DNA of 55,991 nt from Trichodesmium erythraeum GBRTRLIN201. GTDB lineage: Bacteria > Cyanobacteriota > Cyanobacteriia > Cyanobacteriales > Microcoleaceae. The DNA lies in the NCBI GenBank assembly GCA_018457135.1, contig JAGGDU010000151.1:1-55991 (forward strand). The letters are read 5' to 3'. Each line of letters begins with the position of its first letter. Position 1 is the stretch's first letter. Below, piece after piece: positions 5,223 to 24,230 of the stretch. Below the pieces are notes generated by a model that was not told the DNA's origin, ran no database searches, and saw only the letters and a list, made by a program, of their open reading frames with translations. Both the position numbers and the translations under genes were made by a program.

Positions 5223-5463
5223 AATATTTTATACCTAAATTAACAATTAACAAAATTAACTTATGAATTGGGATATTTGAATAGTCATACAAATTCTCTC
5301 AAGAATTACTACACATCATACCCAAGAATTAAATCATATAACCTTATTAAGATTGGCAGTTTAGCCTAAGTTTATGAAATTAGTATTAGTAGCTTTGTAT
5401 TAGGTTGGCTTAATTTGCCTTAACCCAATACAATAGCAGCTAGGAAACTTAGAAATTGAGGTG

Positions 5464-5547
5464 AGGACTTACCTGGATAAATCCTTGTTTAATTCAATAA
5501 AAATCTATGAAAAAACAGTTTTTTTTAGCTTTATCCCCGTAAGTCCT
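5464..5547. repeat. 84-bp inverted-repeat element between ctaD and ctaE
   Basis: AGGACTTAC (5464-5472) pairs with GTAAGTCCT (5539-5547), and just inside GGATAAA (5475-5481) pairs with TTTATCC (5530-5536). This gives a 16-bp stem interrupted by a 2x2 mismatch. The same 9-mer recurs at 3603 and 42379, which suggests a small mobile or MITE-like element. Within the ctaDE transcript it would fold into a long hairpin. The rest of 5223-5560 shows nothing else. Confidence 0.6.
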
Positions 5548-5560
5548 GTGAGTAAAATAA

Positions 5561-7333: not shown

Positions 7334-7419
7334 CCGTAATTATTTTTGAGAATTATGAATTAGCTATTATTAAATGAGGGACTTGAATGATTATTTAGCA
7401 AATCCCAGGGCACTTTTTT

Positions 7420-8439: not shown

Positions 8440-10210
8440 TTTACTTAGGTTGCTTTGTTATTCTGGTGAAATTCACCAAATTAATTCAAATCTCAGGTTT
8501 CACTTTTAGATACTGCTTTGATATTTCTCAGAAAATCAAGTAATTGCAGTCCATAAGTTATGTCTTCCACAAACTTAAAATCTGCGTCAACACCATCTAC
8601 TTTGACTTAATTGGCTTTTGTTTTAGGTTACAAACTTCCCTGTTTATAGTTTTAGTTGTTAACCATAGCCTAGTAGAGGTTCCTCTGACTTGTTGTCATA
8701 GTCAACTATTTAGCTTAAAGTAACCATTTACTTATAACTAAAATATAGTTGTCACCCTTTAGGAATATTTTAGGTTCTTTTCATTTAATCTACAATTTTT
8801 CTAAACAAAATTTATTTTATTTTAACTATTGCACCAAAAAACTGCCCCATACTTTGGAGCCACAAAATTAAAATTGAAGATGTACTCTTAAGTTTCATAC
8901 CTTTTTAGTAATTTAAAATAGAGATCTCGGAAAAATAAAGAAGTTATACTATAGTAATCAAACATATTATTTGAAGCGATTGATTATAAGTAGTATATGA
9001 GAATAGGTCCACAGTAATCCTGAATTAACCTCACAAGGTTGATTGAGAATCAAGTATAAATAACAGTAGAGATTATTAACATATCTACCAAAAGTTATTA
9101 ATGAAACTTTAAGAGAGTAAGATTTTATCTATAGATAGGTATTAAAAAGTCAATTAAAGGCAAAAAAATATATGTATAAAAAACAAGAATAATATGACTT
9201 GGGGCAGAAAAAAAAATTAGGGAATAAAAAAAACTAATAATTGTGTTTTCTTTTGGTGAATATATTATTGATATAGAAACTAAAAATTTAGGAAAAAGAG
9301 TAGCATAAATAATTCATGTAAAACACAATAAAAATTCCCTTAACAACAAAAAAAATACTTGGGATCAAGCCTAAATTGGATTAGGATTAATCAAAATACC
9401 TAAAAAAAACTCAAAAATTCAAGAATTAACTAGCAAAAAAAAGCCGAAAAACCAAGAGCAGACATCTGAAATAATTTTGAACGAATCAGCCTTATTCCTC
9501 CATCTCTCTATAAATTTTTGTTTTAGCAGTAAACATTAGGGTATTTAATATAGCTATATTTAGGGATGTAGAGTTTTACCGCGATATGGGCATTCCGAAA
9601 ATCTTGGTAGTTAGATAGCTCTCTTCAAAATAGTTACAGTAAGTATTTTGCTATTTTTACAAGATTTCTAATACCAATGAGCAAAAATAATGATATGTAT
9701 CAAATGACACTTAAATTATTAAGTAATTAATATAGGCAGCATCACCTTTTTAATTAATAATGTGTTAATTATTCTCATATTGTAGGGAGATTGTATAGAG
9801 CATCCCTTCCTATACAGAAGTTTTATAGAACGCCCCTAACTACTCCTATGCTCCCAGGAAAGATAGGAATAGAACAGTTGTTGAGCAATAGTATAAACTT
9901 TAGGAGAAAGCCGGTTTATTTCCCTAATTATTATTGTTAAAATTATGAAATTTCGTATCATAACCCTATGATCGTGTGTAATTCTTAAAAAATAAAGTTT
10001 TTTGGGAGTCATGGGAAATTAGTAGCATATATAACAATGAATTATTAAAAAAAAATTTAAAATAAAAAGAGTTTGTAAAGATAGATAACTATGCAAACAT
10101 TATTGTCTATAGTAACAAACAGTAATAAAAATTATTAACCTTTATTACCTTGTCAATAGTTAATTTTTTGTTAAATTAGCAACAATAATAATGTCAATCA
10201 TATAAGATTT
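8440..10210. other. 1.77 kb gene-free, very AT-rich divergent region ctaC | ctaA
   Basis: No ORF or recognisable relic lies here despite 1,771 bases. It separates the divergent ctaC and ctaA starts, so promoters for both must lie within it. Long A-runs are concentrated at about 9150-9450. I could not pick one promoter over another, and I see no strong palindrome. Confidence 0.55.
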
Positions 10211-11125
10211 ATGGCCAATTCTATTTTAAATAACAATGGAATTATTTACTCCCAGTCTCAAGCACAGGGACGCATTCGTGGCTTAGTATGGAAACTCTGT
10301 ATAGCAACCCTAGTATTGATGGCTATTGGTAGTGCTACCAGAGTGATGAATGCAGGTTTAGCTTGTCCTGATTGGCCGTTGTGTTATGGTAAGTTGGTAC
10401 CAATGGCACAAATGAACCTACAGGTGTTTTTAGAATGGTTTCATCGGCTAGATGCAAGTTTAATTGGCTTGGGCGCGATCGCTATGATGGGTTTATCATG
10501 GTGGCATAGACAGGAACTACCTAGTTGGCTGCCCTGGGCATCTACCTTTGCTTTTTGTCTAATAGTCTTCCAAGGTGTACTCGGTGGATTAACAGTTACA
10601 GAATTATTACGTTTTGATATTGTTACTGCTCATCTGGGTACCGCATTACTTTACTTTATGACTCTATTAGTAATAGGTATATCAATGCTGCCATACAAAG
10701 GGACTGGAAATGTTGGTAAATTACCTTGGGTGGGATTAACTGCTGCTATTCTAGTATATTTACAAAGTTTACTAGGTGGGTTAGTTTCTTCTCAATGGGC
10801 ATTGCATCAATGTTTTGGTCTAGAAGAACTTTGCACGGTAATGAATAGTCATTTGGCTGGGGTTGTTCCTCCGACTTTAGTAACATTAATATTAGTAGTA
10901 ATGGTATGGCGTACCTCTGCTTTACATCCGCTGCTGCGAAACTTAGCCAACTGTTCTGGTCTATTAGTATTAGCTCAGATAGGTTTGGGGGTTATGACTT
11001 TCCGGTTACGTCTGCAAATTGAGCTGTTAACTGTATCTCACCAGGCTGTAGGAGCTGCATTACTAGGAACTTTAGTAGCTTTTACTGTTATAGCTTTACG
11101 CGATCGACAAGCTGTAAATGTCTAA
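10211..11125 (+). CDS. ctaA: Heme A synthase (COX15/CtaA family)
   Basis: CtaA oxidises the C8 methyl of heme O to a formyl group, giving heme A for the oxidase encoded by ctaD. The 304-residue membrane protein has about eight hydrophobic spans in two homologous halves. The N-half carries GSATRVMNAGLACPDWPLCYG, FLEWFHRLDA and DIVTAHLGTALLYF; the C-half has VMNSHLAGVVPPTL and LTVSHQAVGAALLG. These four His-bearing helices are the expected heme ligands. The Cys pair in ACPDWPLC and the second pair in HQCFGLEELC match the class with paired disulfides. It precedes ctaB by 552 bases. Confidence 0.95.
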   Translation: MANSILNNNGIIYSQSQAQGRIRGLVWKLCIATLVLMAIGSATRVMNAGLACPDWPLCYGKLVPMAQMNLQVFLEWFHRLDASLIGLGAIAMMGLSWWHRQELPSWLPWASTFAFCLIVFQGVLGGLTVTELLRFDIVTAHLGTALLYFMTLLVIGISMLPYKGTGNVGKLPWVGLTAAILVYLQSLLGGLVSSQWALHQCFGLEELCTVMNSHLAGVVPPTLVTLILVVMVWRTSALHPLLRNLANCSGLLVLAQIGLGVMTFRLRLQIELLTVSHQAVGAALLGTLVAFTVIALRDRQAVNV

Positions 11126-11463
11126 TTGTTAATACAGATACAGTAATATACCCCTCTTTTGTGAGTTATTATATTAGAAACGTTAGCTATAACTTTAAGC
11201 GTTTAGCTATCAGCTAGCCTTCCACGTAGGAACTGCGTTAACAGCTCAAATAAAAACTATTAGCTCTAAAGGATTTTTGCTTTGCTCAATATCCCAATAT
11301 CAAGTTGCATTGATTAACCACAATATAAAAAGATGGCATACCGATGAGAGAGTCATTTTTAATATAACTCAAGCTAAAAGCTTAGAGATTTAACCCTTGG
11401 AGGTTCAGTAGGTTGGAAGTTTTGTAGCGTTCCAAAAATCAATTTCTAGGCTGCACAGTAGAA

Positions 11464-11480
11464 GTCATCTAATAGATGAC
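11464..11480. promoter_or_regulatory. Perfect palindrome in the ctaA-ctaB spacer
   Basis: GTCATCT and AGATGAC form a perfect 7-bp inverted repeat around AAT. It lies about 200 bases before the ctaB start in a 552-base spacer that otherwise shows nothing. It could be an operator or a small hairpin; function is not shown. Confidence 0.3.
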
Positions 11481-11677
11481 CAAAGATAGCTGATAAATTT
11501 GGCTAATTAATGAGACTTGATATAACCTAGATGCGTAGTGCTATACAAGTAACTAAATTTTTCAAATTTGCTAACATCCAAAATGGACTGGCACTAAGAT
11601 CCGTTTCTATATAGCTTATAAACTTTAGATGATGGAAATTATAACCAGTTTCAATAGAAAATTAACAAATAAAATCC

Positions 11678-12664
11678 ATGCAACAAGTTATTTCTCATAG
11701 TCTACCACGGCGCCATAACAATATCCTACAGGTATTTAAAAGCTATTATCAACTTACAAAACCCCGCATTATTTTGCTGCTATTAATTACAACTGCAGCG
11801 GGAATGTGGTTGGGAGCAAAAGGAGAAGTATCTCTCTTTCTTTTGTTCGTTACATTAACAGGTGGTGCATTAGCTTCTGGTGCAGCTAATGCTATTAACT
11901 GTATCTACGACAGCGATATTGACTATATTATGGAGCGTACTCGCTGGCGTCCTATTCCATCTGGGAGAGTTAAACCTCGTGATGCTCTGATTTTTGCGTT
12001 GACTCTGGCAGCAACATCATTTACTTTACTCACAGTTTTTGCTAATTTACTAGCTGCACTGTTGGCCATGTCGGGAATAGTTTTTTATGTTGGTGTTTAC
12101 ACTCACTGGTTAAAACGTCACAGTGTTCAAAATATTGTAATTGGTGGTGCTGCTGGTGCTATTCCTCCGTTAGTGGGTTGGGCCGCAGTCACAGGGGAAT
12201 TGAGTTGGGCTGCTTGGTTATTATTTGCAATTATTGTGGTCTGGACTCCTCCTCATTTTTGGGCATTAGCAATTTATATTCGTGATGAATATCAGGAAGT
12301 TGGGGTGCCTATGTTACCTGTAATTGAGGGAAATGAGGAAACAGCTAGACAGATTTGGGTTTATACTCTAATTTTAATTCCTATGACGCTATTGCTGGTT
12401 TATCCGTTGCATGTGAGTGGAGCCATTTATGCAGTATTAGCGACTTACCTTGGTGTAATTTTTATTAAGAAAGCTTGGCAGTTGTTGAAAGATCCTTCGA
12501 ATAAAGATGTAGCACGATCGCTGTTTAAGTATTCTATCTACTATATGATGTTATTGTGTTTGGTAATGGTCATTGATAGTTTGCCTTTTACTCATGGAAT
12601 TACTACTGCTTTAGCAGATAGTTGGCAAACTTTTATTGGTGGAGCGATCGCAATTTTATTTTAG
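11678..12664 (+). CDS. ctaB: Protoheme IX farnesyltransferase (heme O synthase)
   Basis: CtaB (CyoE family) adds a farnesyl group to the C2 vinyl of protoheme, making heme O, the substrate of CtaA. The 328 residues form about nine membrane spans of the UbiA prenyltransferase fold. The first Asp-rich motif is [18 protein letters not shown] (about residues 73-90), and the second conserved loop is [37 protein letters not shown] is the usual N-terminal signature. Together with ctaA it completes the heme A branch beside the oxidase genes. A GC-rich hairpin at 12781 is the likely terminator. Confidence 0.97.
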
Positions 12665-12780
12665 GAGCTATATCAAAATAAGTTGTATAAATTTCATTTG
12701 AGATGAATTGTGAAATTTAGCTTCTATCAAAAAACTGTTTGAGTTATTTTTACCAAAAAATTGGGTACAAATATAAAGGC

Positions 12781-12809
12781 TCCCCCTTTGAGGGGGACTT
12801 TTAATTTTG
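12781..12809 (+). terminator. Strong hairpin terminator downstream of ctaB
   Basis: TCCCCC and GGGGGA form a perfect 6-bp GC-rich stem with a 5-base loop (12781-12797), followed by CTTTTAATTTT. It lies 117 bases past the ctaB stop. It also abuts the 3' end of the IS200-type relic, so it could instead be an element-end hairpin. Confidence 0.55.
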
Positions 12810-13045
12810 AATGTACTTTTTAAGATTTGCAAGTGGTGCGCCTCTAACTAAAGTCACATACAGAGGAAGGACTCCAAAGCAGAGTTTTGTGAGTTTTTGT
12901 ATATTCTGCTGGGCTATATCATCTACTCGAAACATCTTTAAGATGATTGACAATTTTGTGATCTGGATAATTTGGGTGGGTATTTGATAGCTATATGAAC
13001 ATGATAATTTTCGCCATTAAATTTTAGTATCTTGAAGTTTATCTC
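12801..13045 (-). pseudogene. IS200/IS605-type Y1 (HUH) transposase relic
   Basis: The minus strand reads KEINFKILKFNGENYHVHIA then IKYPPKLSRSQN, which contains the His-x-His (HVH) of HUH transposases in its usual setting. After stops and a frameshift a second piece reads VTLVRGAPLANLKKYIQN with a stop at 12801, the typical C-terminus. The catalytic Tyr region is lost among stop codons. The N-terminal third, expected at 13045-13260, is not recognisable. This is a dead remnant. Confidence 0.65.
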
Positions 13046-13225
13046 TTTACCCCAGGAGGGGAGCAAGAGAAGTGGGTGCAGTACCCTATAAAATTTCAGC
13101 CGACATAGGAGCTTCGAGTCGGTTCTTTCTCTGTGTCTGCTTTCTTCAGAAGAGCTTCGTTAACAGGTCCCAGAGAATCTCAAATAAGTCTTTAGTTTCA
13201 ATTAGACAATATAATTTTGTTTTAG

Positions 13226-13257
13226 GTAGGCAAAATGCTTACCTTTCCTTTTTATTA
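13226..13257 (+). terminator. Hairpin followed by a T-rich run
   Basis: GGTAGGC pairs with GCTTACC (one G-T pair) around AAAAT, followed by TTTCCTTTTTATT. It has terminator form on the plus strand, but no intact plus-strand gene precedes it closely. It may belong to the decayed element. Confidence 0.35.
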
Positions 13258-13284
13258 GCCTGAGATTATCTAAAATTATTTTTC

Positions 13285-13811
13285 AAAATATGATTTTTAA
13301 AACCATTGCAGCTGATTTTTAATGATAATTTCTTGGCACATATTACTAACCCATTGAATAACCACAGCATTATAGGGATAAGGTTGATATTGAGTGCGCA
13401 AAATTGTTTTTCGCAGTTCATTGAAAAATTCAGATTTCGTAACTCTGTATCAACTATTGTCTGTGGTTCCATCTCCAATAGAAGAGAGCACAAAAAAATT
13501 CAGTTTACTTTTGACATCTAAACCATAGCGATCGCTCATCAAACTTCTATGTTGGTTTTCACAAATTTTTCTTTTAATATTATTGTAGGCTTGATTTATT
13601 TCCTGATAATTGAAAAATCAAAAAAACCACTACAAGCTCTAAATTGTTGGCAACTACACCTCCATTAAAAATTCTATATCCAGTGTATAGTGACTCTCCA
13701 CTCACTATTAGGAATTGTCTTCCAGCAACTTCCGTATTAGCTTTTATAATGCTCATGGCTATAGATGGAGTTTTAGTATTAGGGAATAAAGCGATCGCTT
13801 CTGCTTTATCC
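13285..13811 (-). pseudogene. Relic of an unidentified protein gene
   Basis: Minus-strand translation gives consecutive protein-like blocks in different frames: EAIALFPNTKTPSIAMSIIK, then ESLYTGYRIFNGGVVANNLE, then (next frame) INQAYNNIKRKICENQHRSL and LNFFVLSSIGDGTTDNS, then FFNELRKTILRTQYQPYPYN and WVSNMCQEIIIKNQ. Stops and frameshifts lie between them. The blocks have normal amino-acid composition, which supports a decayed gene over chance, but I do not recognise the family. Confidence 0.45.
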
Positions 13812-13866
13812 TAGATAAAAATTGCTCTGCAGAAAATAGGAAATATAGACAATTTTTGACCAAATA

Positions 13867-14023
13867 AATAATCGCGTTTATGTAGCAATTCATGATAGTT
13901 ATACCATGGGTAAATTATCTGTATTTAAGTATATAAAATATCTCTATTTTGGGATGATAAAGGATTACATTTTTCAGAATATTTGACTTTTGATAACAAC
14001 TGTGAGGATTCATTTACCCTAAA
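13867..14023 (+). pseudogene. Degenerate copy of the downstream ATPase P-loop segment
   Basis: These 157 bases align along their whole length, with one indel, to 14261-14418 inside the ATPase gene that starts 145 bases later. That gene segment encodes residues about 32-84 with Walker A. Shared stretches include TATATAAAATATC and TTTTGGGATGATAAAGGATT. Frame and Walker A are destroyed (DSYTMGK for GASGMGK, followed by stops). It is a fossil of a truncated tandem duplication at the array edge. Confidence 0.75.
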
Positions 14024-14095: not shown

Positions 14096-14124
14096 TTTAA
14101 CAACCCTGAATACTCTGATATAAT
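14096..14124 (+). promoter_or_regulatory. Extended -10 promoter of the ATPase array
   Basis: TGATATAAT at 14116-14124 is an extended -10 box, with a weak -35 TTTAAC at 14096-14101 (17-base spacing). The region from the -10 to the ATG (CTGAATACTCTGATATAATT and on to CTAATTATG) recurs almost unchanged before the fourth gene of the array at about 19654-19717, including TATAGTCAA and the run to ATTATG. Conservation in front of two type I paralogues supports a real promoter and leader. Confidence 0.55.
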
Positions 14125-14167: not shown

Positions 14168-15397
14168 ATGTCATCCAATAAATTCTTTCCCAATAAACCT
14201 GTTCCTCCAGAGAAGTTTGTCGGTAGAAAATCTGAACTATACACAATTTTTGACCAAGTTAATAATCGTGGTCATGTGGCTATTCATGGTGCTTCTGGTA
14301 TGGGTAAATCATCTTTACTCGACTATATAAAATATCCTCATTTTTGGGATGATAAAGGATTAAATTTTTCAGAGGCTTTGATTGTTTATCACAACTGTGA
14401 GGGTTCATTTACGCCAAATAGTTTTTGGCAAGAAATTTTACAAGAGTTAAGAAATGAAGCTGAAGGTGATACAGATTTACAGAGTAAGATTGATGATGTC
14501 TTAAAATTAGAAACAATAGAAATAAGAGATATACGTCGAATACTTAAACAAATTGGGAAAAGAAATAAATTTTTATTATTATTATTAGATGACTATAATG
14601 GAATACTTCGTACACCAGAATATTATAGCAAAGACTATCAAAAGTCTAGAGAAGTACAGACGTTTTTAAGTGGGTTGCGTAATCTGGCAGTTCATAGTAC
14701 AGAAAGTCAATATTTCTCAACAGTTGTTGCTGCATTCCAAAAAGTGGATGAGTTAGGTCCAGAGATTCCTCGTGGTGGTTCTCCTTGGTATAATCATTAT
14801 CTATATGTAGATTTAAAACCTTTTAGTCGGGAGGATATTAATAATTATTTTTTTAATTCCGATAGTCATTTCTTTATTTCAATTCCTGAAAATATTCAGA
14901 AAGAAAAAGTGTTAGAAATTACTAGTGGATATCCAATCTTACTTCAACAGGCAGGTTATATATTTTCTAAACTGGATCGAGTTATTGATATTAATACTTT
15001 TAAGGCAGAACTTAAAAATCAAACTGAACAGATATTTAAGGATATATGGAGAGAATTGACTACAGACGAACAAAAGCTTTTACAGCTCATTGTCATTGAT
15101 AACTTCAAAGGAGAAGTTAATGGAAAGCGTTATTCTCATGATGGTATAGATCAAGTATTTGAGGAAAATAAGTATAAACTGACAACCTTGGAGCAAAAAG
15201 GTGTTATCTCTCAGAGCCCAGACCAGGATAAATATAATTTTTCTTCTTCTTTAATGCAAGATTTAGTTCTTCAAAAATTGGCTGAAAGTATTTGGGACCC
15301 TAAAAAGGGTAAAATCTTGTTTGACAGCTTTGGAACCAAGATTAACTATGAGCAGTCCATGATTGAAGAATTATTAGGAATAATCCCTTTTAATTAA
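14168..15397 (+). CDS. Type I P-loop (AAA/STAND-like) ATPase, array gene 1
   Basis: This 409-residue soluble ATPase starts with KFVGRKSEL (about 16-24), the entry motif of AAA_16/archaeal-ATPase-like P-loop proteins. Walker A is GASGMGKS (41-48). Walker B is KFLLLLLDDY (134-143). Next come a GGSPWYNHY segment, LKPFSREDI, and a sensor-like SGYPILLQQAGYIF region. The last 120 residues look like a winged-helix-type end (TTDEQKLLQLIV onward). No effector or membrane span is visible. It is closely similar to array gene 4 and to the C-terminal half of gene 2. The role is unknown; STAND-type signalling is an inference from fold and clustering. Confidence 0.8.
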   Translation: MSSNKFFPNKPVPPEKFVGRKSELYTIFDQVNNRGHVAIHGASGMGKSSLLDYIKYPHFWDDKGLNFSEALIVYHNCEGSFTPNSFWQEILQELRNEAEGDTDLQSKIDDVLKLETIEIRDIRRILKQIGKRNKFLLLLLDDYNGILRTPEYYSKDYQKSREVQTFLSGLRNLAVHSTESQYFSTVVAAFQKVDELGPEIPRGGSPWYNHYLYVDLKPFSREDINNYFFNSDSHFFISIPENIQKEKVLEITSGYPILLQQAGYIFSKLDRVIDINTFKAELKNQTEQIFKDIWRELTTDEQKLLQLIVIDNFKGEVNGKRYSHDGIDQVFEENKYKLTTLEQKGVISQSPDQDKYNFSSSLMQDLVLQKLAESIWDPKKGKILFDSFGTKINYEQSMIEELLGIIPFN

Positions 15398-15486
15398 TCA
15401 AAAAATCAAGAATAGTCAACTCAATTTTGGCAATTTTCTTTATACTTAAATAAAAAATTAAACCCTAATATGAGGTAGTACTTCAG

Positions 15487-18384
15487 ATGAGTAATTCAGA
15501 ATTTATTTCTAACCCATATATTATTGGCATTCCCATTCGCCAAAAAGATAAATTTTATGGACGAAGAGAAATATTTGATTTTCTTGAAACTCAGCTCAGG
15601 CAAAATGTAAAAATTATCTTATTACAAGGACAGCGACGAATTGGTAAAACATCAGTTCTTGAGCAGATTAGTAATTTTATTGATTTGAATGATTTTGTTT
15701 TTATTCAACTTTCTCTAGAAGATAAAAAATCTACAAATATAGAATATTTATTTGAGGAATTAGCAATAGAAATTCAAGATTACATCACAGATAATCTTGA
15801 GATAGAAGAGAGTAGTGTCTCTTGTTATAATAGTTCTAAATTTCCTAATACATTAAATTGGTTTGAGAAAATATTTTTGCCGGAAGTTTATGAAACTCTA
15901 GACGGTAAAAATGTTGTTTTAATGTTAGATGAATTTGATAGACTAGATAATATTAATCAAGAGACAGAAAACAAATTTTACAAATATTTGAAGCAGATAG
16001 TTACAACAGATAAAAAACTTTTTCTACTGCCAGTTATAGGCAAACCTGTTGAGGATCTTTCTGAATATTTTCAGGACTCTTTTCGGCAAGCAATTTTGCA
16101 AAAAATTGGATTACTAGATGATTCATATGCTAAAGAGTTAATTATCAATCCAACGAAAAAACTAAAATATCAAGATGAAGCCATCGAGACAATTCTCAGA
16201 TTATCAGCTAATCATCCTTATTTTACTCAGGTTTTATGTTTTACTTTGTTTAATAGTGCTAAGGCTAGAGATAGATGGGAAGTAACTTCTCAAGATGTAG
16301 AAAGTATTGTTGAAAAAGCGATTACTCATTCTCAAACAGGATTAGCATCTTTAAGAAATTCATTACCAATATATGAAAAAGTTGTTTTTTTAGCAGTAGC
16401 AAAGTCTCAAGATATAGATGGTATAAAAGAGCAGTTATTAACTTTAGAAGATTATGGTGTTTCTGTAACGGATGCCTTGAAAAAAGCGTTGAAAAATTTG
16501 GATAAATGGGGTTTTTTAGAAAAGCAAAGTTCTAGTTCCCCACAGGATTTTTATCAATTAAAAGTAGAGTTTGTTCGACGTTGGTTAATTACAAATAATT
16601 TCATCAAAATTTTTGGTGAGGCAATTCGTGAATTAGAAATTGCTGATTTAGAAGCTAATGAGCTTTATCAGGAAGCATGCAAAATAGGAGCAAGCGATAT
16701 TAATAGTGAGATTGAAAAGTATAAGGAAGTAATTATAAAAAATCCTAACCACTTTAGCGCTAAATTGAAACTGGCTCAACTTTACTACGAGAATAAAAAA
16801 TTCGACTCAGCAATTGAATTATATGAAAATATTGACAAACTATATCAAAGAATTGATAGGTTTAGAGAGCATAAAAATATCCAGGAGTTTCTACCATTAA
16901 AAGTTGAAAATAATTTGCTTGAGGTTCGATGGAAATATATTGATATTTTATTAGCAGATCCAGAGAATTTAGACTCTTTAAGATTTGCAGAGGAACAGCT
17001 CAAAAAAATATCTGAACTAGAGCCAAATAACGAGAAAGTTAATAATAAGTTAAATGATATAAATCTGAAAATTCGTCGCCTGACAGCAAATCCTTTTACG
17101 ATCAAAAAATATGTTGAACCAGAAGATTTTGTTGGTCGTAGAGATATTATTAGTTATGCTTTCAATCAAATTAAATATAATAGTAATGGTCTTTTTTATG
17201 GTACCCCAGGGATAGGAAAATCTTCATTGCTCAGATATTTAGTTGAACCTGCATCTTGGGAGATAAAAAAATACAACGTTGATATTAATGATTACTATAT
17301 ATTGCAAATTGATTGTGAATCTATAGAAAATTTATCTGTTACTAACTTTTGGAAAGAAGTTATAAGAGAACTAGATCTGGAAACTGCAGATGATACAAAG
17401 TTAAAAGATAACATTCAAAAAATCTTAGCTCAGGAAACAATAACTAAAGTTGACATAGAGTCTTTATTTAGGTCAATTAGCTCTCAAAAATCCTTGGTAC
17501 TATTGATAGATAATTATGATGCTTTATTCAAAACCCAAAATAATTATTCCTCAAATGAAGCATTGAAGCTTTTGAGACAGTTGAAAAGTATTAATAATCA
17601 TAAACGTATAAAATGTTCCCTGATCATGACTTCCTCGGAAAAGGTAGAGAAACTGCTTGGAGAGTTAAAAGAAGATACATCAATTTGCGAATATCTTGTT
17701 ACTTTTCCTCTCGAACCATTTAATGATAATGAAATGGAAGAATTATGGGAAAGAATGCCAAAAGAATATAGAGATAGAAGAGTTCTACAAAAAAAAGTCA
17801 AAGATTTGACTGGCGGCCATCCGGCGCTTTTTCAAATTATTTGTTATTATTTGTACGATTTGTGTAAAGTAAATATTGATAAACAGACACAGAAAAATAA
17901 ATATGAAAACCTAAATAAGTGGTTTTATGATCAGGCAAAGTTAATATTAAAAGGAATATGGAAATCATTAACTTTGGCAGAACAAGGAATGTTACTTTTA
18001 GTTATTTTATCTGACTTAGAAGGGCGTATTAAAAGACATAGGAAGTATGACTTAAGTGGAATTAGAAGGTCGTTTAGAGAACAAGATCAAGTTTTAAATA
18101 GTCTAAAATACAGAAAAATAATCACAAAAACTGGTACTGATAGAAACCACGAGGATATTTACGATTTAACGTCAGATGCTTTAAAGGAATGGGTAATTAA
18201 TGAAATTATCATTAAGGATGTTGATGACGATGTTGCACAGCGGGAAAAAATCTTTTTATTTATCAAGCAAAAAGATGTCAATATGATTAACCAGCTATTT
18301 AAAGAATTATGGAGTAGCAAAGATGAAGTTAAAGAATCACTGGTTTGTCTTAAGGAAATATTATCCTTATTTTTTGTGGCATGA
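15487..18384 (+). CDS. Fused type II-TPR-type I double ATPase, array gene 2
   Basis: This 965-residue protein carries two complete ATPase modules. The N-terminal type II module has FYGRREI (23-29), Walker A GQRRIGKT (48-55), Walker B VVLMLDEFD (143-151) and a C-terminal VEFVRRWLI winged-helix-like end (about 360-370). Residues about 390-535 are helical and TPR-like (AKLKLAQLYYENKKFDSAIE, then a LEPNNEKVNNKL repeat end). The second module is type I: FVGRRDI (548-554), Walker A GTPGIGKS (572-579), Walker B LVLLIDNYD (670-678), then GGHPALFQI. It starts 89 bases after gene 1, with GAGG about 12 bases before its ATG. The fusion implies that type I and type II modules act together. Confidence 0.8.
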   Translation: MSNSEFISNPYIIGIPIRQKDKFYGRREIFDFLETQLRQNVKIILLQGQRRIGKTSVLEQISNFIDLNDFVFIQLSLEDKKSTNIEYLFEELAIEIQDYITDNLEIEESSVSCYNSSKFPNTLNWFEKIFLPEVYETLDGKNVVLMLDEFDRLDNINQETENKFYKYLKQIVTTDKKLFLLPVIGKPVEDLSEYFQDSFRQAILQKIGLLDDSYAKELIINPTKKLKYQDEAIETILRLSANHPYFTQVLCFTLFNSAKARDRWEVTSQDVESIVEKAITHSQTGLASLRNSLPIYEKVVFLAVAKSQDIDGIKEQLLTLEDYGVSVTDALKKALKNLDKWGFLEKQSSSSPQDFYQLKVEFVRRWLITNNFIKIFGEAIRELEIADLEANELYQEACKIGASDINSEIEKYKEVIIKNPNHFSAKLKLAQLYYENKKFDSAIELYENIDKLYQRIDRFREHKNIQEFLPLKVENNLLEVRWKYIDILLADPENLDSLRFAEEQLKKISELEPNNEKVNNKLNDINLKIRRLTANPFTIKKYVEPEDFVGRRDIISYAFNQIKYNSNGLFYGTPGIGKSSLLRYLVEPASWEIKKYNVDINDYYILQIDCESIENLSVTNFWKEVIRELDLETADDTKLKDNIQKILAQETITKVDIESLFRSISSQKSLVLLIDNYDALFKTQNNYSSNEALKLLRQLKSINNHKRIKCSLIMTSSEKVEKLLGELKEDTSICEYLVTFPLEPFNDNEMEELWERMPKEYRDRRVLQKKVKDLTGGHPALFQIICYYLYDLCKVNIDKQTQKNKYENLNKWFYDQAKLILKGIWKSLTLAEQGMLLLVILSDLEGRIKRHRKYDLSGIRRSFREQDQVLNSLKYRKIITKTGTDRNHEDIYDLTSDALKEWVINEIIIKDVDDDVAQREKIFLFIKQKDVNMINQLFKELWSSKDEVKESLVCLKEILSLFFVA

Positions 18385-18432
18385 TCAAGAGTTACGATTT
18401 AGTATATTAAATATTTTTAACTTTCAAGAAAG

Positions 18433-19545
18433 ATGAACGATTACAAATACAGACCAAATCCTTATATTTTTGGCAAACCAATTTATCAAAAAAAACAATT
18501 ATTTGGTAGAGAAAATACTGTTAAAAGAATTCAAAATAACATTAAAAATAATATAAAAATAACTTTGTTGCATATCCAAAGACGTATTGGTAAAACTTCA
18601 TTAATAACTTGTTTGCCTCAGTTTTTCACTGATGATATTAAGTGTGTTACTTTTTCATTTCAAGGTTATAAAAATAGATCAATACTTGAAATCTTAAATA
18701 ATCTTGCTGATGAGATTGCTAATACTATTGATGGAGTCCCTAGAGAAGTAAGAGAACTAGCTGATAGTTCAGAAAATTTTTTTCGGATTTTTTTGCCAAG
18801 GATTATTAATAAATACTTATCTGGTAAAAACCTTGTTCTTCTCCTAGATGAATTTGATGTTTTAGAAGAAGATCAAACAACGTTTATTCATGGAAAATAC
18901 TTATTTAATGAATTAAAAAAAGCTGTGAACCGAGAAGAAAAACTATTTGCTATCCTGGTTTTTGGTAGACCATTAAAAGATATGACCTATCTAGGAGAAT
19001 TGTTACAAAAAGAAGGTCAAGAGACTATAGAAGTTGGTTTGCTGGATAAGAAAAGTACACACAATTTGATTGTTGAGCCAGCTAAGGGAACATTAGAATA
19101 TGAAGCAGATGCAATTGATGCTATTTGGCAACTATCCGCGGGTCATCCTTCTCTAACACAACTACTATGCTTGTATATTTTTAGGTTTTGTATTCAAAAA
19201 GGAATAAAAAAGGTAACTCATACTCATGTCGACTCAATTTTAGATGAAGCAATGGAGGGAGGTAAGGCAGCATTAAAAGGCTTTATAGAACCTTTGAATG
19301 AAAACGAAAATTTGTTTTTTCGTGCAGTAGCAAAAGCTCAGAATGAAGTTGGAGAAAACCGACTAAAGGCTAATATAAAAAAATCGCAGTCTGTAGGGAA
19401 ACGTTTAGCTGAAGAATATGGCTTTTTAGAAGAAAAAGAAGATGGAACAGGCTATAAAATTAAAGTCGAGTTAGTCCGGCGTTGGCTAGTAAAAAATTAT
19501 CCTTTATCTGACAAAGAAAAGCTGCAAGTGGAAAAAGCTATTTAA
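18433..19545 (+). CDS. Type II P-loop ATPase, array gene 3
   Basis: This 370-residue type II module opens with NPYIFGKPIYQ and LFGRENTV. Walker A is HIQRRIGKTS: the first Gly is replaced, but the essential G53-K54-T55 remains. Walker B is LVLLLDEFD (134-142). FGRPLKDM and SAGHPSLTQLLC follow, then VELVRRWLV near the C-terminus, the probable winged helix. It begins 48 bases after gene 2. Over this length it is strikingly similar to the N-terminal half of gene 6, including ITCLPQ and VTFSFQGYK, so one is a duplicate of the other. Function unknown; cytoplasmic by lack of membrane spans. Confidence 0.78.
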   Translation: MNDYKYRPNPYIFGKPIYQKKQLFGRENTVKRIQNNIKNNIKITLLHIQRRIGKTSLITCLPQFFTDDIKCVTFSFQGYKNRSILEILNNLADEIANTIDGVPREVRELADSSENFFRIFLPRIINKYLSGKNLVLLLDEFDVLEEDQTTFIHGKYLFNELKKAVNREEKLFAILVFGRPLKDMTYLGELLQKEGQETIEVGLLDKKSTHNLIVEPAKGTLEYEADAIDAIWQLSAGHPSLTQLLCLYIFRFCIQKGIKKVTHTHVDSILDEAMEGGKAALKGFIEPLNENENLFFRAVAKAQNEVGENRLKANIKKSQSVGKRLAEEYGFLEEKEDGTGYKIKVELVRRWLVKNYPLSDKEKLQVEKAI

Positions 19546-19643
19546 AAAAATAAAATCCCATATTTTGTGTTTTGGATGTGGAACTGCTATTAAAACCTAG
19601 CCAACTTAATTAAAGTATGAAATATCTGAAAGATGCCGAAGAT

Positions 19644-19672
19644 TTAGCAATTCTGAAGACTCTGATATAATA
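19644..19672 (+). promoter_or_regulatory. Internal promoter, duplicate of the array promoter
   Basis: TATAAT at 19667-19672 is preceded by TG (extended -10, CTCTGATATAAT), with TTTAGC at 19644-19649 as a weak -35 at 17-base spacing. The -10 and leader match those at 14096-14167 before array gene 1. It suggests the array is read as at least two transcription units, each beginning with a type I gene. Confidence 0.55.
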
Positions 19673-19714
19673 TGAAATTATAGTCAAGCTAAAAGTAAAA
19701 TAGTTGATCCAATT

Positions 19715-20992
19715 ATGCCACGCAATCAATTTTATCCCGATAAATCTGTTCCTCCAGAAAAATTTGTAGGTAGAACATCTGAACTATCCACGATTTTTGA
19801 CAAAATTAATAGTCGCGATCATGTTGCTATTTTTGGTAGTTCTGGTATGGGTAAAACATCTTTGCTTCAATATATAGAAAACTCTAAATTTTGGGAAGAA
19901 AGAGACTTAGATTTTTCAGAAGCTTTGATTGTTTATCACAACTGCGAGCTTTCAGTTATAGATAGTTTTTGGCAAGAAGTCCTCAGAACATTAATAGATA
20001 AAGCTACAGGTGATCAAGATTTAGTGAGTAAGATTAATGCTTTATTAGGGTTGGAGAAAATAGAAATAACAGATATACGGGAGCTTCTCAGAGAGATTGG
20101 GAAAAGAGGTAAGTTTTTATTATTATTATTAGATGACTATCATAGAATACTTGGTACACGAGAAGAGTATCCGGAAAACCAGGGAAAAAAATCTAAAAAA
20201 GTGCTGACTTTTTTAAGTGAGTTGCGTAACCTAGCAGTTCATAATAGAGAAGGTCAATATTTCTCAACTATTGTTGCTACGTTTCAAAAGTTGCATGAAC
20301 TAGGTCCAACAATTGTTCCTGGTGGTTCTCCTTGGTATAATCATTATGCCTATCTACCTTTAAAACCTTTTTGTAAAAGCGATATTGAGGGTCATTTTTT
20401 TAATCGCGATAGTCATTTTTTCATTTCAGATGCTCCGAAAGAAGAAGTTTTAAAAATGACTGGTGGGTATCCAGCGTTACTTCAGTTTACAGGTTATATA
20501 TTTTCTCGCTTGGAACCAGTTAATGTTGATACTCTGAATACAATGTTAAAAAACGATGCTGATAGAATTTTTCAGGATGTCTGGAACAATTTTGAAAAAA
20601 ATGAGCAAGAAATTTTGCAGTTAATTTTAATTGATAAATATAAGGGTAAATTCAGGGAAATTTCTTATTCTATTGCTGGCATAGAAAAAGAGTTTATTCG
20701 CAATATTAGCATATTGAAGAGTCTTGAAGAAAAAGGATTTATCAGTCAGGTTAAACAAGCAAATAAATATAGTTTTACTTCTTCTTTAATGGAAGATTTT
20801 ATTGGTGATCAACTTGCAGAAAAAAATGTTTCAAACGCTAAAGACCGCAAGATAGTGATTAATTTATTTATTATCAAGATTACTCTTGGACTATGGAAGA
20901 AAGTTAAAGAAAAAATACAGCCTGTTACTAAGTTCATATCACCTCTTGCTAAAATCATCGATTTAATCGCTAACAAAATAGAAGGCAAATAA
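19715..20992 (+). CDS. Type I P-loop ATPase, array gene 4
   Basis: This is a 425-residue paralogue of array gene 1. KFVGRTSEL comes first, with Walker A GSSGMGKT (41-48), the shared ALIVYHNCE, Walker B KFLLLLLDDY (133-142), GGSPWYNHY, LKPFCKSDI and MTGGYPALLQF. It ends with a gene-specific amphipathic stretch of about 55 residues rich in Ile, Leu and Lys, which may be a membrane-associating or oligomerising helix. It starts after a 169-base gap with its own promoter, and 32 bases separate it from gene 5. The arrangement type I then type II repeats that of genes 1-2. Function unknown. Confidence 0.78.
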   Translation: MPRNQFYPDKSVPPEKFVGRTSELSTIFDKINSRDHVAIFGSSGMGKTSLLQYIENSKFWEERDLDFSEALIVYHNCELSVIDSFWQEVLRTLIDKATGDQDLVSKINALLGLEKIEITDIRELLREIGKRGKFLLLLLDDYHRILGTREEYPENQGKKSKKVLTFLSELRNLAVHNREGQYFSTIVATFQKLHELGPTIVPGGSPWYNHYAYLPLKPFCKSDIEGHFFNRDSHFFISDAPKEEVLKMTGGYPALLQFTGYIFSRLEPVNVDTLNTMLKNDADRIFQDVWNNFEKNEQEILQLILIDKYKGKFREISYSIAGIEKEFIRNISILKSLEEKGFISQVKQANKYSFTSSLMEDFIGDQLAEKNVSNAKDRKIVINLFIIKITLGLWKKVKEKIQPVTKFISPLAKIIDLIANKIEGK

Positions 20993-21024
20993 TAGCAAAC
21001 GTCTAGTTGGATGTAGTTTTGCAA

Positions 21025-22272
21025 ATGAGAAATTTAAAGGCTTTGATTAAAAATCCCTACACTGTTGGTCGCCCAATTTTTGAACCAGAAAACCTATTTG
21101 GACGAGAAACAATTTTAAGTTTTATTCAAGAACAACTGACTTCTGGGGCTAAAGTAATTCTATTGCATGGGCAAAGACGTATGGGCATGACTTCATTTAT
21201 GAACTACATTGCTGAAGATGTTAGTTTAGATGAATTTGTCTTTGTTCGACTGTCTCTAGAAGATAAATATAATAAATCTTTGGATAAAATATTATATGAT
21301 TTAGCTAGAAATATTACTGATGAGTTGGGAATATCTAGAACCACCATAACTATTCCTAGTCAAGAAGATTTAAAGGTGGAAACACAAGATTTTGTTAATA
21401 TTTTTATGCTTCAAGTTTACCAACAATTAAAGAGGAAAAATTTAGTTCTACTTCTTGATGAATTTGATATGTTATGGGACAATAGCTGTCAAGAAATTAA
21501 CCCCTTTGTCAATTTCTTAATTTCAATTATTAATCTACAAGAGAAATTATTTATAATTTTGTTTGTCGGAAGAGGGGAAACTAATCTAGAGTTTATCCAA
21601 GATTTATTCCGGGAAGTAGGAAAATTACCTCACCAAGAATTGGGGTTACTTGATAAGTGTAATACTATCAAGTTAGTTACTGAAATTCCTAGGGAAGCCA
21701 CGAATTATAAGTACGATCCAGATGCAATTGAAAAAATCTGGGAATTATCGGGGGGACATCCTTACTATACTCAATTACTATGTTCTAATTTATTTCACCA
21801 AGCTAGAAATAAAGGCAAATGGAATGTGAGTTATCAAGATGTCCAAGGAGTTATAGATAAATCTTTGGAGCAAGGTGAACCTGCTTTTGTATCTCCTCTA
21901 GAAGTTTTATCTACTCAACAAAAATTAATTTTGTCGGCAGTAGCTGAAGCACAAGAAAGAGCTACAAATTCAGAGCATATTGTTAGTCCATTGGTGATAC
22001 TAGAAATGTATGATGTCAAGGTCACATCAAATTTAATAGAAGAACTAATAACAGCAGCAAAACATTTAGTTGATTTGAAGTTTATAGTGGAAATAGGAAA
22101 ACAAAAATTCAGAAAAATCAGAGTTCCTATCTATAAAGTTAGAATTGAATTGTTTCGACTTTGGTTATTAAAACAATGTCCATTAGACAAACAAAGAGAT
22201 TTAATTAATGATTTATTTCCTAAGAAGCCCTGGATCCAGAGGCTTTGGTATATGGCCTTTTTAAATGAATAA
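21025..22272 (+). CDS. Type II P-loop ATPase with lost Walker A lysine, array gene 5
   Basis: This 415-residue type II module (ATG at 21025; a TTG at 21007 would add six residues) has NPYTVGRPIFEP and LFGRETIL. Its Walker A reads GQRRMGMTS where gene 2 has GQRRIGKTS: the catalytic Lys is Met (codon ATG at 21187-21189). Walker B LVLLLDEFDML and the sensor-like SGGHPYYTQLLC are intact, as is the C-terminal VRIELFRLWLL. The frame is open over its full length, so this looks like a retained pseudo-ATPase rather than random decay. It sits between gene 4 and gene 6, with 29 bases to the latter. It may be a regulatory partner. Confidence 0.78.
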   Translation: MRNLKALIKNPYTVGRPIFEPENLFGRETILSFIQEQLTSGAKVILLHGQRRMGMTSFMNYIAEDVSLDEFVFVRLSLEDKYNKSLDKILYDLARNITDELGISRTTITIPSQEDLKVETQDFVNIFMLQVYQQLKRKNLVLLLDEFDMLWDNSCQEINPFVNFLISIINLQEKLFIILFVGRGETNLEFIQDLFREVGKLPHQELGLLDKCNTIKLVTEIPREATNYKYDPDAIEKIWELSGGHPYYTQLLCSNLFHQARNKGKWNVSYQDVQGVIDKSLEQGEPAFVSPLEVLSTQQKLILSAVAEAQERATNSEHIVSPLVILEMYDVKVTSNLIEELITAAKHLVDLKFIVEIGKQKFRKIRVPIYKVRIELFRLWLLKQCPLDKQRDLINDLFPKKPWIQRLWYMAFLNE

Positions 22273-22301
22273 TATTCAGATAATAACTAAACAATCTAAT
22301 A

Positions 22302-24230
22302 ATGCAAACTAACAATCATTTATCCATAAATCCTTATGTTTTTGGCAAACCAATTTATGAATACAACAACTTATTTGGTAGAAAAAATGATGTTGATAAA
22401 ATTAAAGATCACATCATTAACAAAGATATAAAAATAACTTTATTGCATGTCCAAAGACGTATTGGTAAAACTTCATTGATAACTTGTTTGCCTCAGTCTT
22501 TCACTGAGGAGCAGAATGGTGTTAAGTTTGTTACTTTTTCATTTCAAGGTTATAAAGATAAGCCAATCCCTGAAATACTAAATTATCTTGCTGATGAGAT
22601 CGCTGGTACTATTCAACTTCCTCAAAAAGTAAGAGATCAGGCTGATACTACGCACAACTTTTTTGAACTTTTTTTGCCGAAAGTTATCGATCAATATTTG
22701 TCAGGTCAAAAGTTGGTTCTTCTCCTTGATGAATTTGATGTTTTAGAAGAAAAAGATAAGAAAGGAAAAGTATTATTTGATTACTTAAAAAAAGCTGTTA
22801 AGGAACAAAAAAAACTATTTGCTATTCTGGTTTTTGGTAGACCCTTAAAGGATATGAAGTATCTAGAAACATTTTTACAAGAAGAAGGTCAAGAGACTAT
22901 AGAAGTTGGTTTACTGGATTATGAAGGTACACAAGATTTGATTGTTGAGCCACTTAAGAGAATACAGAGCGTATTTAGATATGAAAAAAGTGCAATAGAT
23001 AGAATTTGGGAACTATCTGCTGGCCATCCTTCTTTGACACAACTGCTGTGCTCAAATGTTTTTGTTCATTGTAGGAATAAGCAACAGAGTGTAGTTCGGA
23101 AAGACGATGTAGACTCAATTTTAAGTCAAGCAATGGAAGAAGGCCAGGCAATATTACAAGGCTTTCTAGAGCCTTTAAGCGATATTGAAAAGTTATTTTT
23201 TTTTGCAGTAGCAGAAGCTCAAGAACAAGGCACAGACCCATTAAAGATTCTGAAAATAATACAAAAAACTACAATAACACCGGCAGATTTTAGAAGAGCA
23301 CGAGAGCGTTTAATAGAGTTAGGCTTTGTAGAAAAAAATGGCAAAGGTCTTAAAATAAAAGTTGAATTAGTCCGGCTCTGGCTAATAGAAAAAAACCCCT
23401 TACCCAACAATAAACAGAGGAAACCGAAGGAAGGAAGAAAAAAGATCAAACGTCATATAACCTCAAGTCAACCCAACAGACCTAACCCAGTTGCACAATT
23501 CATTGCTTTTATTGCGTTGATAAGCGTTATAGTTTTTATTGGACAGAAGTTACTCTCTAGGATTGATAGCTCCAAAAACTATGAACGCTTTCAGTCTGAC
23601 TGTTACAGACTATCAGAGGAAATAAGCAACGCTTTAGAAGAGAAAAAAGATACAACGCAGTTGCAAGTCATCAAAAAAGTTAGAACTGAATGGTCGAGAG
23701 AAAAAAAAGGCTTATTAGACAAACAATGCCCATATTCTTATGAACTAGATGCAAAATATAATGCATTACTACAGTACTATGGACAAAGTAAAGTAGATAC
23801 TGGAAACTTTGATGAAGGTATAGAAGCATTTTGTGAGATTACCAGTGAATACAAGAATTTTTCTGACATTAAAAAAATCTTTGAAAGATGGGTACTAATA
23901 GACAAAAGATTATCTAATGAAAGTACAAAAAGGGTGCTGAAGCAAATAATTAAGCAAAATCAATCAGGAAATGATTGCCTTGTTTATTCATTTAAAGACG
24001 ATAGAAATAAAAATGATCTGTATGACCTGAAAGCTCAAGTTCATGCTGATGATTATGAGTATGGCGAAGCGGTCGAGTCATATTGCAAAATTACAGAAAA
24101 CTATTATAAGTTTGAGACTGTTGTTAAACAGCTAAAAAAATTGAAACGAGAAAATGTAGAGAAAGTAGAGGAAAAACTCAAAGAATTAAACGATCCGTGT
24201 CCAGCATTTCCTCCCTCACCAGACAATTAA
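22302..24230 (+). CDS. Type II ATPase with membrane span and Cys-containing repeat tail, array gene 6
   Basis: The 642 residues hold three parts. Residues 1-370 are a type II ATPase: LFGRKND, Walker A HVQRRIGKT ending G55-K56-T57, Walker B LVLLLDEFD (138-146), and VELVRLWLI. A Lys-rich linker leads to one membrane span at about 397-414 (VAQFIAFIALISVIVFIG). Beyond it are two related helical repeats: VDTGNFDEGIEAFCEITSEY, and a second with EYGEAVESYCKITENYYKF. Further Cys lie in QSDCYRL, DKQCPY, GNDCLV and NDPCPA. With the ATPase inside, the tail would lie outside the cytoplasm. It is the only array member predicted to be membrane-anchored. I do not recognise the tail. Confidence 0.78.
   Translation: MQTNNHLSINPYVFGKPIYEYNNLFGRKNDVDKIKDHIINKDIKITLLHVQRRIGKTSLITCLPQSFTEEQNGVKFVTFSFQGYKDKPIPEILNYLADEIAGTIQLPQKVRDQADTTHNFFELFLPKVIDQYLSGQKLVLLLDEFDVLEEKDKKGKVLFDYLKKAVKEQKKLFAILVFGRPLKDMKYLETFLQEEGQETIEVGLLDYEGTQDLIVEPLKRIQSVFRYEKSAIDRIWELSAGHPSLTQLLCSNVFVHCRNKQQSVVRKDDVDSILSQAMEEGQAILQGFLEPLSDIEKLFFFAVAEAQEQGTDPLKILKIIQKTTITPADFRRARERLIELGFVEKNGKGLKIKVELVRLWLIEKNPLPNNKQRKPKEGRKKIKRHITSSQPNRPNPVAQFIAFIALISVIVFIGQKLLSRIDSSKNYERFQSDCYRLSEEISNALEEKKDTTQLQVIKKVRTEWSREKKGLLDKQCPYSYELDAKYNALLQYYGQSKVDTGNFDEGIEAFCEITSEYKNFSDIKKIFERWVLIDKRLSNESTKRVLKQIIKQNQSGNDCLVYSFKDDRNKNDLYDLKAQVHADDYEYGEAVESYCKITENYYKFETVVKQLKKLKRENVEKVEEKLKELNDPCPAFPPSPDN

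Follow-up and report, generated by a model that had tools for sequence, protein, structure and literature searches.

The six collinear open reading frames at positions 14168-24230, plus strand, of the window analysed here, a 55,991-nucleotide stretch from the filamentous marine cyanobacterium Trichodesmium erythraeum, are read, with slightly better than even confidence, as two tandem copies of a receptor-coupled, two-component STAND-type signalling switch. The array resembles a sensing module not yet described in bacteria and akin to switch proteins of the immune type, because in related genomes its two ATPase types usually lie side by side and one of them often has a receptor outside the membrane. 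At the sequence level it presents itself as two units preceded by putative promoters, with one predicted membrane-anchored member and a near-obligatory linkage of type I and type II genes; a literature search found no description of such a pair.

HMMs built for both types recovered the six-gene array and the seven ATPase modules where the initial annotation had placed them, in the order I; II+I; II; I; II; II with a membrane helix (Table 1). The reported II-I fusion in gene 2 is also present, its two modules being joined by a linker which resembles TPR_19 in Pfam (E 2.3e-5, 25.1 bits vs a cutoff of 25). The order is not a strict alternation of the types, as had been described, and the idea of one six-part machine is replaced by two tandem duplicated three-gene units, genes 1-3 and genes 4-6. 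Genes 1 and 4 share 57% identity, genes 3 and 6 share 62%, and the two-unit arrangement recurs in contig L085 (Okeania sp. SIO3I5), where the first type I genes are broken into fragments; the array is therefore not a product of chance. Two motifs proposed as type marks proved less general: SPWYNHY holds in genes 1 and 4 and is missing from the type I module of gene 2, and gene 5 departs from the type II mark QRRIGKT.

Table 1. Features of the array and of the sequence upstream of its units
Feature	Position	Strand	Basis
Decayed remnant of a type I gene, with stop codons and an interrupted frame	13810..14021 (about)	+	own-genome protein search, translation
Promoter-like TTAACA-16-TATAAT, 11/12, TG before second hexamer, upstream of unit 1	14097..14124	+	
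Gene 1: type I STAND-like ATPase, 409 aa	14168..15397	+	HMM, model mean pLDDT 90.2, Foldseek
Gene 2: type II module aa 1-387, TPR-like linker aa 409-451, type I module aa 533-962	15487..18384	+	Pfam, HMM
Gene 3: lone type II module, 370 aa	18433..19545	+	HMM
Promoter-like TTAGCA-16-TATAAT, 10/12, TG before second hexamer, upstream of unit 2	19644..19671	+	
Gene 4: type I STAND-like ATPase, 425 aa	19715..20992	+	Pfam, HMM
Gene 5: 421 aa, type II module without the Walker A lysine (GQRRMGMT, aa 55-62)	21007..22272	+	sequence
Gene 6: type II module aa 3-386, one predicted membrane helix aa 395-414, predicted outside helical region, 642 aa	22302..24230	+	

The stretches before gene 1 and gene 4 are homologous to each other, and the promoter-like elements found there belong to a class of matches with no overall excess in the region (52 vs 53.6 in shuffles). 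In the own-genome protein search, the decayed remnant matched gene 1 at 50% over aa 13-68 and at 60% over aa 54-83. No known RNA, tRNA or regulatory RNA was detected in the window at threshold.

Both types look STAND-class, and the relation to STAND proteins initially suggested is supported by Pfam and Foldseek. STAND proteins are characterised by a P-loop and a Walker B aspartate, by a GxP motif and a winged-helix-like region after the ATPase core, and by oligomerisation that depends on ATP and follows ligand binding. In the present families G-x-P is conserved, with P256 invariant in the type I alignment (A3) and P243 in the type II alignment (A4), and a helical or winged region follows the core in the predicted models. 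GK[ST] occurs in six of the seven window modules, with GMT in gene 5, and the Walker B aspartate is kept in all seven. Pfam scores of the modules lie near or below the cutoffs, gene 5 passing that of ATPase_2 (42.5 bits vs 33.2). For genes 1 and 6, the top Foldseek matches were 2qen (PABY2304) and 2fna (SSO1545), archaeal proteins of the Pfam family ATPase_2 which we take to be STAND proteins; they are the best fold matches of both types, but identity to the array ATPases is low (15-17%). We know of no paired partner or swappable receptor tail for either of them. A sequence search of solved structures led from type II to 2qen only (E 0.0072) and from type I to a chance-level match. Below 2qen and 2fna, the matches listed included ORC, the MalT system, Apaf-1 and NLRs; ORC/Cdc6 proteins filled ranks 3-7 in the gene 1 search and ranks 3-9 in that with gene 6, so that fold alone cannot separate STAND from ORC-like AAA+ proteins.

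The array is better understood from its wider family than from the window by itself. The two types proved tightly linked across genomes, as the initial annotation had supposed. Of the 77 distinct intact type I genes counted at the named and own-genome loci, 74 are followed immediately by a type II gene, at a median gap of 40.5 bases; of the other three, one lies at the end of a contig and two (L136, L156) are genuine exceptions. For these counts, the gene shared by the overlapping loci L119 and L139 was counted once, L144 was taken as paired (its type II frame overlaps type I by about 80 bases), and the repeats of named contigs among loci L063-L078 were removed. When 386 genomes were drawn, type I occurred in 16, two of which held fragments only, and in 14/14 genomes with a full-length type I gene a type II gene adjoined it. 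On these two counts the scattered single homologues that the initial annotation had named as refuting evidence were rejected. Strong type II matches (at least 137 bits) came from 13 genomes, all with type I, and from a fragment at the end of a contig in G155; in the remaining 28 of the 42 genomes with type II matches these were distant ones only (<=77 bits, 25-28% identity), and the one such match that was read (L015) is a six-helix membrane protein with its ATPase at the C-terminus. L068 has a pair of type II genes, and no type I was detected in the part of that locus retrieved. Paired modules are co-inherited (Mantel r 0.79 over 66 pairs; highest of 1000 permutations 0.25), a result which does not show interaction because linked genes are co-inherited anyway. 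All named loci (n=76) are cyanobacterial, occurrence is patchy (10/59 relatives, 2/34 genera), and broken copies are common (L081, L085, L124, L143, L153).

Within the pair, the sequences show type I to be the constant partner and type II to carry a variable C-terminal module. An amino-acid-type periplasmic-binding domain is present in 52 of the 117 distinct type II proteins, and other tails comprise kinase, GAF, GUN4, nSTAND1-WD40, NNH3-pentapeptide, SH3, TPR and another NTPase. The swapping of tails was confirmed by Pfam, with 15 label changes on either tree among eight tail labels. In the PDB the binding domain comes closest to Leu/Ile/Val and amino-acid/amide binding proteins, followed by metabotropic glutamate receptors; its family is shared with Leu/Ile/Val and HAAT periplasmic binding proteins and mGluR ligand domains, but unlike these the type II domain is fused behind an ATPase, TPR and a membrane helix. 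Twelve of the 52 proteins had no helix above the hydropathy threshold. Binding-domain type II genes in first and second position fall into largely separate clades, so two non-equivalent receptor subunits appear to persist. As for an ABC uptake system, no ABC permease was present among the scanned window proteins, the binding domain being fused to a STAND-like ATPase instead, and none was noticed among the recurrent neighbours of the pair in a general, rather than family-by-family, inspection.

The array in the window is without the binding domain. Hydropathy makes gene 6 the sole member with a predicted helix, in agreement with the claim that the last gene alone is membrane-anchored, and the basic residues before this helix suggest that the region after it is on the outside face. 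The outside-facing member proposed earlier can thus be retained as a prediction, with the difference that in most relatives the outside part is a periplasmic-binding-type receptor. The repeats once ascribed to gene 6 were not recovered; its outside region is modelled as helices and matched no Pfam repeat family. No effector domain was recognisable in the window. The Walker A lysine is absent from gene 5 and from the five orthologues checked (L082, L083, L084, L085, L180), and a dN/dS of 0.33 against L084 points to purifying selection; dN/dS was below 1 in all pairs computed (0.33-0.87).

A switch of this kind would operate as follows. Type II subunits may bind the signal through their C-terminal module, the site being in most relatives the periplasmic amino-acid-type binding domain across one membrane helix and, in the window, possibly the outside helical part of gene 6. 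An exchange of nucleotide in the type II ATPase would then cause it to join type I in a mixed complex, where the gene 5 product, with its dead Walker A site, would be a structural subunit. The complex would relay the signal, with transcription, growth arrest and cell death as candidate outputs. More tentatively, and with rather less than even confidence, the pairs might represent widespread, undescribed transmembrane NLR-like receptors of cyanobacteria: an obligate STAND pair of a constant type I and a type II receptor with a swapped sensing end (an extracellular binding domain or one of many intracellular modules), in which non-equivalent and even ATP-dead subunits would enter a mixed complex.

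An anti-phage or cell-death conflict system, with type II as the sensor of damage or of an invader and its assembly with type I leading to shutdown of the cell for the good of the filament, is a serious possibility, albeit one we lean against. The fold matches listed include chains from Apaf-1, plant resistosomes and Avs4, and NLR/Apaf-1 resistosomes and bacterial Avs have a similar logic of NTPase and C-terminal sensing; the pair differs from them in having no N-terminal effector domain, a sensor that can sit outside the membrane and a second ATPase partner. The kinase, GUN4, TPR, WD40 and STAND tails are of kinds present in published conflict systems, and patchy occurrence fits as well. The published iSTAND MoxR-vWA ternary systems are operons of several NTPases in which the core is constant and the C-terminal domains vary, and they are reported to be concentrated among multicellular bacteria (PMC7159879). 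Type I forms the C-terminal part of a protein at L156, in an operon with EAD8-iSTAND, MoxR-type AAA_5 and vWA_CoxE genes whose layout is that of these published systems; a conflict or defence role is plausible because of this fusion, found in one genome. In the array, by contrast, the constant pair is two STAND-like ATPases, and neither MoxR nor vWA was found in the six genes or the flanking genes scanned, L156 being the only locus with them. EACC2/TRADD-N systems resemble the pair in combining a constant component with a variable C-terminus, for which a kinase, a STAND module or, beyond a membrane helix, an extracellular CHASE2 sensor is described (PMC8195603), but no TRADD-N or EACC2 domain was matched in the proteins scanned.

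Several observations argue against such a system. Array proteins gave no full-length match to components of the anti-phage systems in PADLOC-DB, the matches being weak and partial (best PDC-S27, E 2.2e-8 over 133 residues of gene 3), and no conserved effector was seen among the recurrent neighbours, few clusters of which were searched by family. An apparently housekeeping constant neighbour is kept by the pair in up to 19 loci, unlike what is expected of a mobile defence island, and type I had no match in plasmids, phages or viral contigs, so that such carriage was rejected; type II gave one plasmid match at 20% coverage. The recurrent neighbours in general look like housekeeping genes or local synteny.

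Slightly less likely, in our judgement, is a nutrient or amino-acid sensing regulator of MalT-like logic, where an external amino acid or related ligand would gate an ATPase controlling metabolism and not defence. The likeness of the binding domain to Leu/Ile/Val-type proteins would suit it, as would 8bob chain C, presumably MalT, among the best gene 1 fold matches. The array is flanked by cytochrome-oxidase/haem genes and an ammonium transporter gene. The transporter gene also speaks for this reading: it converges on the array in the window and on its counterparts in L082 and L084, and it is present as a fragment in L085 and in broken form in L083. This transporter is, however, limited to close relatives, the window copy is without the binding domain, and a single nutrient does not readily account for kinase, GUN4, NNH3-pentapeptide and WD40 tails. 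No functional link of the array to the flanking genes is visible, in line with the earlier remark that no housekeeping neighbour explains it.

It is improbable that the ATPase paralogues stand together through tandem duplication alone, with no joint function: the duplicated genes 1/4 and 3/6, their homologous upstream stretches and the frequent broken copies would agree with this, but two different subfamilies remain adjacent in one order across many genera while the tails change, and dN/dS stays below 1 in every computed pair. A replication or plasmid-maintenance role as ORC/Cdc6-like DNA-binding AAA+ proteins is very improbable, since the high rank of ORC and Cdc6 chains in both fold searches is outweighed by 2qen and 2fna as best matches, membrane-anchored receptor tails on type II, occurrence in 16/386 genomes and the lack of a plasmid match for type I.

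For the receptor-coupled switch, our best guess at a role is that filamentous cyanobacteria use it in responding to stress or conflict. STAND proteins are a switch common to animal, plant and bacterial immunity, and the best-known of them sense inside the cell and act as single proteins. If the proposed reading is true, a conserved pair of ATPases with an outside receptor would give bacteria a counterpart to receptor-coupled immune switches, and filamentous cyanobacteria could read extracellular amino-acid-like signals, for example from lysed neighbours.

Six open reading frames, all on the forward strand and at the position initially annotated, make up the array, with intergenic gaps of 89, 48, 169, 14 and 29 bases in order, as computed from the ORF coordinates. 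Profile HMMs built here for the two subfamilies of ATPase module recovered all seven modules previously described, but their order across genes 1-6 (I; II-I; II; I; II; II-TM) is not strictly the alternation of type I and type II that had been claimed. Gene 2 contains a TPR-type linker and, as already noted, only gene 6 carries a membrane helix. The SPWYNHY motif, put forward as a mark of type I, is near-universal, with W207-Y211 invariant in the type I alignment (57 rows, excluding the fused type I module of gene 2), but it is absent from that fused module. The array has no evident functional link to the cytochrome oxidase and haem genes or to the ammonium transporter, in keeping with the view that no housekeeping neighbour explains it; an ammonium transporter, entire or fragmentary, also adjoins the array in the related loci L082, L083, L084 and L085.

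Coordinates of the features in the window and in loci of relatives
Feature	Location	Strand	Remarks
Gene 1	14168-15397	+	
Gene 2	15487-18384	+	
Gene 3	18433-19545	+	
Gene 4	19715-20992	+	
Gene 5	21007-22272	+	Walker A at 21169-21192
Gene 6	22302-24230	+	
COX3, COX1, COX2	within 4587-12664	-	upstream of array
CtaA/COX15-like gene, haem O synthase	within 4587-12664	+	upstream of array
Ammonium transporter gene		convergent	downstream of array
Direct tandem repeat	38882-39024		69-base unit, 2.1 copies, 93% matches
Second locus, same genome	L014:4917-9196 (G000:C176)		type I with in-frame stop near N-terminus; type II-TM-binding-domain receptor
Gene 3/6-type copies	L085:7315-8436, 11298-13301		
iSTAND-like operon	L156:4742-11275		
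Stand-alone membrane-helix and binding-domain proteins	L081:2745-4385, L081:8107-9534, L068:3127-4587		separate from the ATPase; type I or type II genes in the locus

The two module types are closely linked. Among 77 distinct intact type I genes of at least 370 aa, taken from the window, the second locus of the same genome and the cyanobacterial loci L081-L156, 74 have a type II gene next downstream on the same strand; L116 stops at a contig edge, and L136 and L156 are without a downstream type II. This set was collected via type I, and the reverse linkage was addressed with a phylum-wide draw of 386 cyanobacterial genomes. Sixteen of them have type I, in two cases as a short fragment, and the adjacency anticipated in the initial annotation was found in all 14 genomes with a full-length type I, the only ones giving strong type II matches. 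Locus L068 has two type II genes and no type I in the stretch read, its genome encoding type I elsewhere. Paired modules are co-inherited (Mantel r 0.79 over 66 pairs, permutation maximum 0.25), a result that linkage by itself would yield as well.

Among near relatives, type I occurs in 10 of 59 genomes and 2 of 34 genera. A scan over 84,980 species genomes with a type I pattern yielded 106 relatives, the best 80 of which represent 76 loci, all with cyanobacterial titles. Judging by genus name, all of these are filamentous except for Xenococcus (L102), Prochloron (L131) and FACHB-63 (L128), an enrichment confounded by the large genomes of filamentous species.

Structural models of genes 1 and 6, built from alignments of the window proteins with those of related loci, reached mean pLDDT values of 90.2 and 81.7. 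The top fold matches of both were 2qen and 2fna (TM-score to 2qen by query length 0.56 for gene 1 and 0.40 for gene 6), followed by ORC/Cdc6 chains, while Apaf-1, plant resistosome and Avs4 chains were also among the matches listed. Given these folds, Pfam scores near the cutoffs for nSTAND, NACHT and NB-ARC, and a conserved GxP, both ATPase types are best read as STAND-class, a reading that does not separate them from ORC-like AAA+.

Type I is the constant partner, and the C-terminal tail of type II is variable. A periplasmic-binding-type domain is found in 52 of 117 distinct type II-first proteins, the remainder having a type I module (10), a membrane helix only (12), other tails (27) or short or cut ends (16). 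In the proteins scanned with Pfam, the tails were assigned to Peripla_BP_6, with E-values down to 1e-32, as well as to protein kinase (L107, L109), GAF (L087), an additional NTPase (L094, L111), nSTAND1 with WD40 (L141), NNH3 with pentapeptide repeats (L118), TPR (L089, L128), GUN4 (L081) and SH3_3 (L077). Placing eight tail labels on either tree, that of type I or that of type II, takes 15 changes. Among PDB entries, the binding domains most resemble proteins that bind amino acids and metabotropic glutamate receptors, and 40 of the 52 proteins have a membrane helix above threshold. Type II genes with this domain in first and in second position fall in largely separate clades (support 99 and 88), and thus the common three-gene form, type I followed by receptors B and C, has two distinct receptors.

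The array is made up of two units in tandem, genes 1-3 and genes 4-6. Genes 1 and 4 (57% identical) are paralogues, as are genes 3 and 6 (62%). Upstream of genes 1 and 4, stretches of 170 bases can be aligned across 79 columns that contain TTAACA/TTAGCA-16-TATAAT; these elements are two of the four best among 52 promoter-like matches, a number showing no excess over shuffled DNA (52 vs 53.6). Ahead of gene 1 lie the remains of a decayed type I gene. The unit of type I, type II without the Walker A lysine and type II-TM occurs alone in the Okeania contigs L082, L083 and L180, and also in L084, whose sequence starts just upstream of it; both units are found together in the window and in L085, and in L081 a type I is succeeded by a fragment that begins like gene 2 and is cut by the contig end. 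L085 has two copies of the gene 3/6 type, which are mutual nearest relatives among type II modules in the tree (support 88), and window gene 3 pairs with L082 (support 94); this suggests that copies within arrays exchange sequence.

The Walker A motif QRRIGKT, described as typical of type II, does not hold for gene 5, which reads GQRRMGMT. In the loci read, methionine replaces the lysine in six distinct type II modules (window gene 5, its orthologues in L082, L083, L084 and L085, and a module in L115), the loss in L115, unrelated to the gene 5 group, being independent; the gene 5 counterpart of L180 has isoleucine. By simple pairwise counting against L084, dN/dS is 0.33 for gene 5 and 0.87 for each of genes 4 and 6 around it. 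Over its first 60 residues, gene 6 has a dN (0.26) that exceeds dS (0.06). These estimates are based on small synonymous counts, which copy exchange may disturb.

A link with conflict systems appears in L156, one of the two exceptions to the linkage, where a 663 aa protein has type I as its C-terminal part (residues 239-655) and is preceded by genes for EAD8-iSTAND, MoxR-type AAA_5, vWA_CoxE and a Uma2-like protein. Elsewhere the N-terminal domain of the fusion seems to be joined to other C-termini, since 22 of the 40 listed matches cover that domain alone, in frames of 359-1476 aa. The locus is an apparent iSTAND ternary conflict operon, a single case with the layout published for such systems (PMC7159879).

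The initial annotation, which proposed a multi-ATPase assembly perhaps acting in signalling or conflict, was right in its observation and partly right in its interpretation. Searches of the open-access literature turned up no account of STAND ATPases that form a pair with a receptor of the periplasmic-binding type, a scope that allows no claim of priority. Mechanism, ligand and output of the ATPase pair are matters that we can only infer. The preferred reading of the array is a new form of STAND signalling, in which an ATPase pair is combined with swappable, often extracellular sensors.
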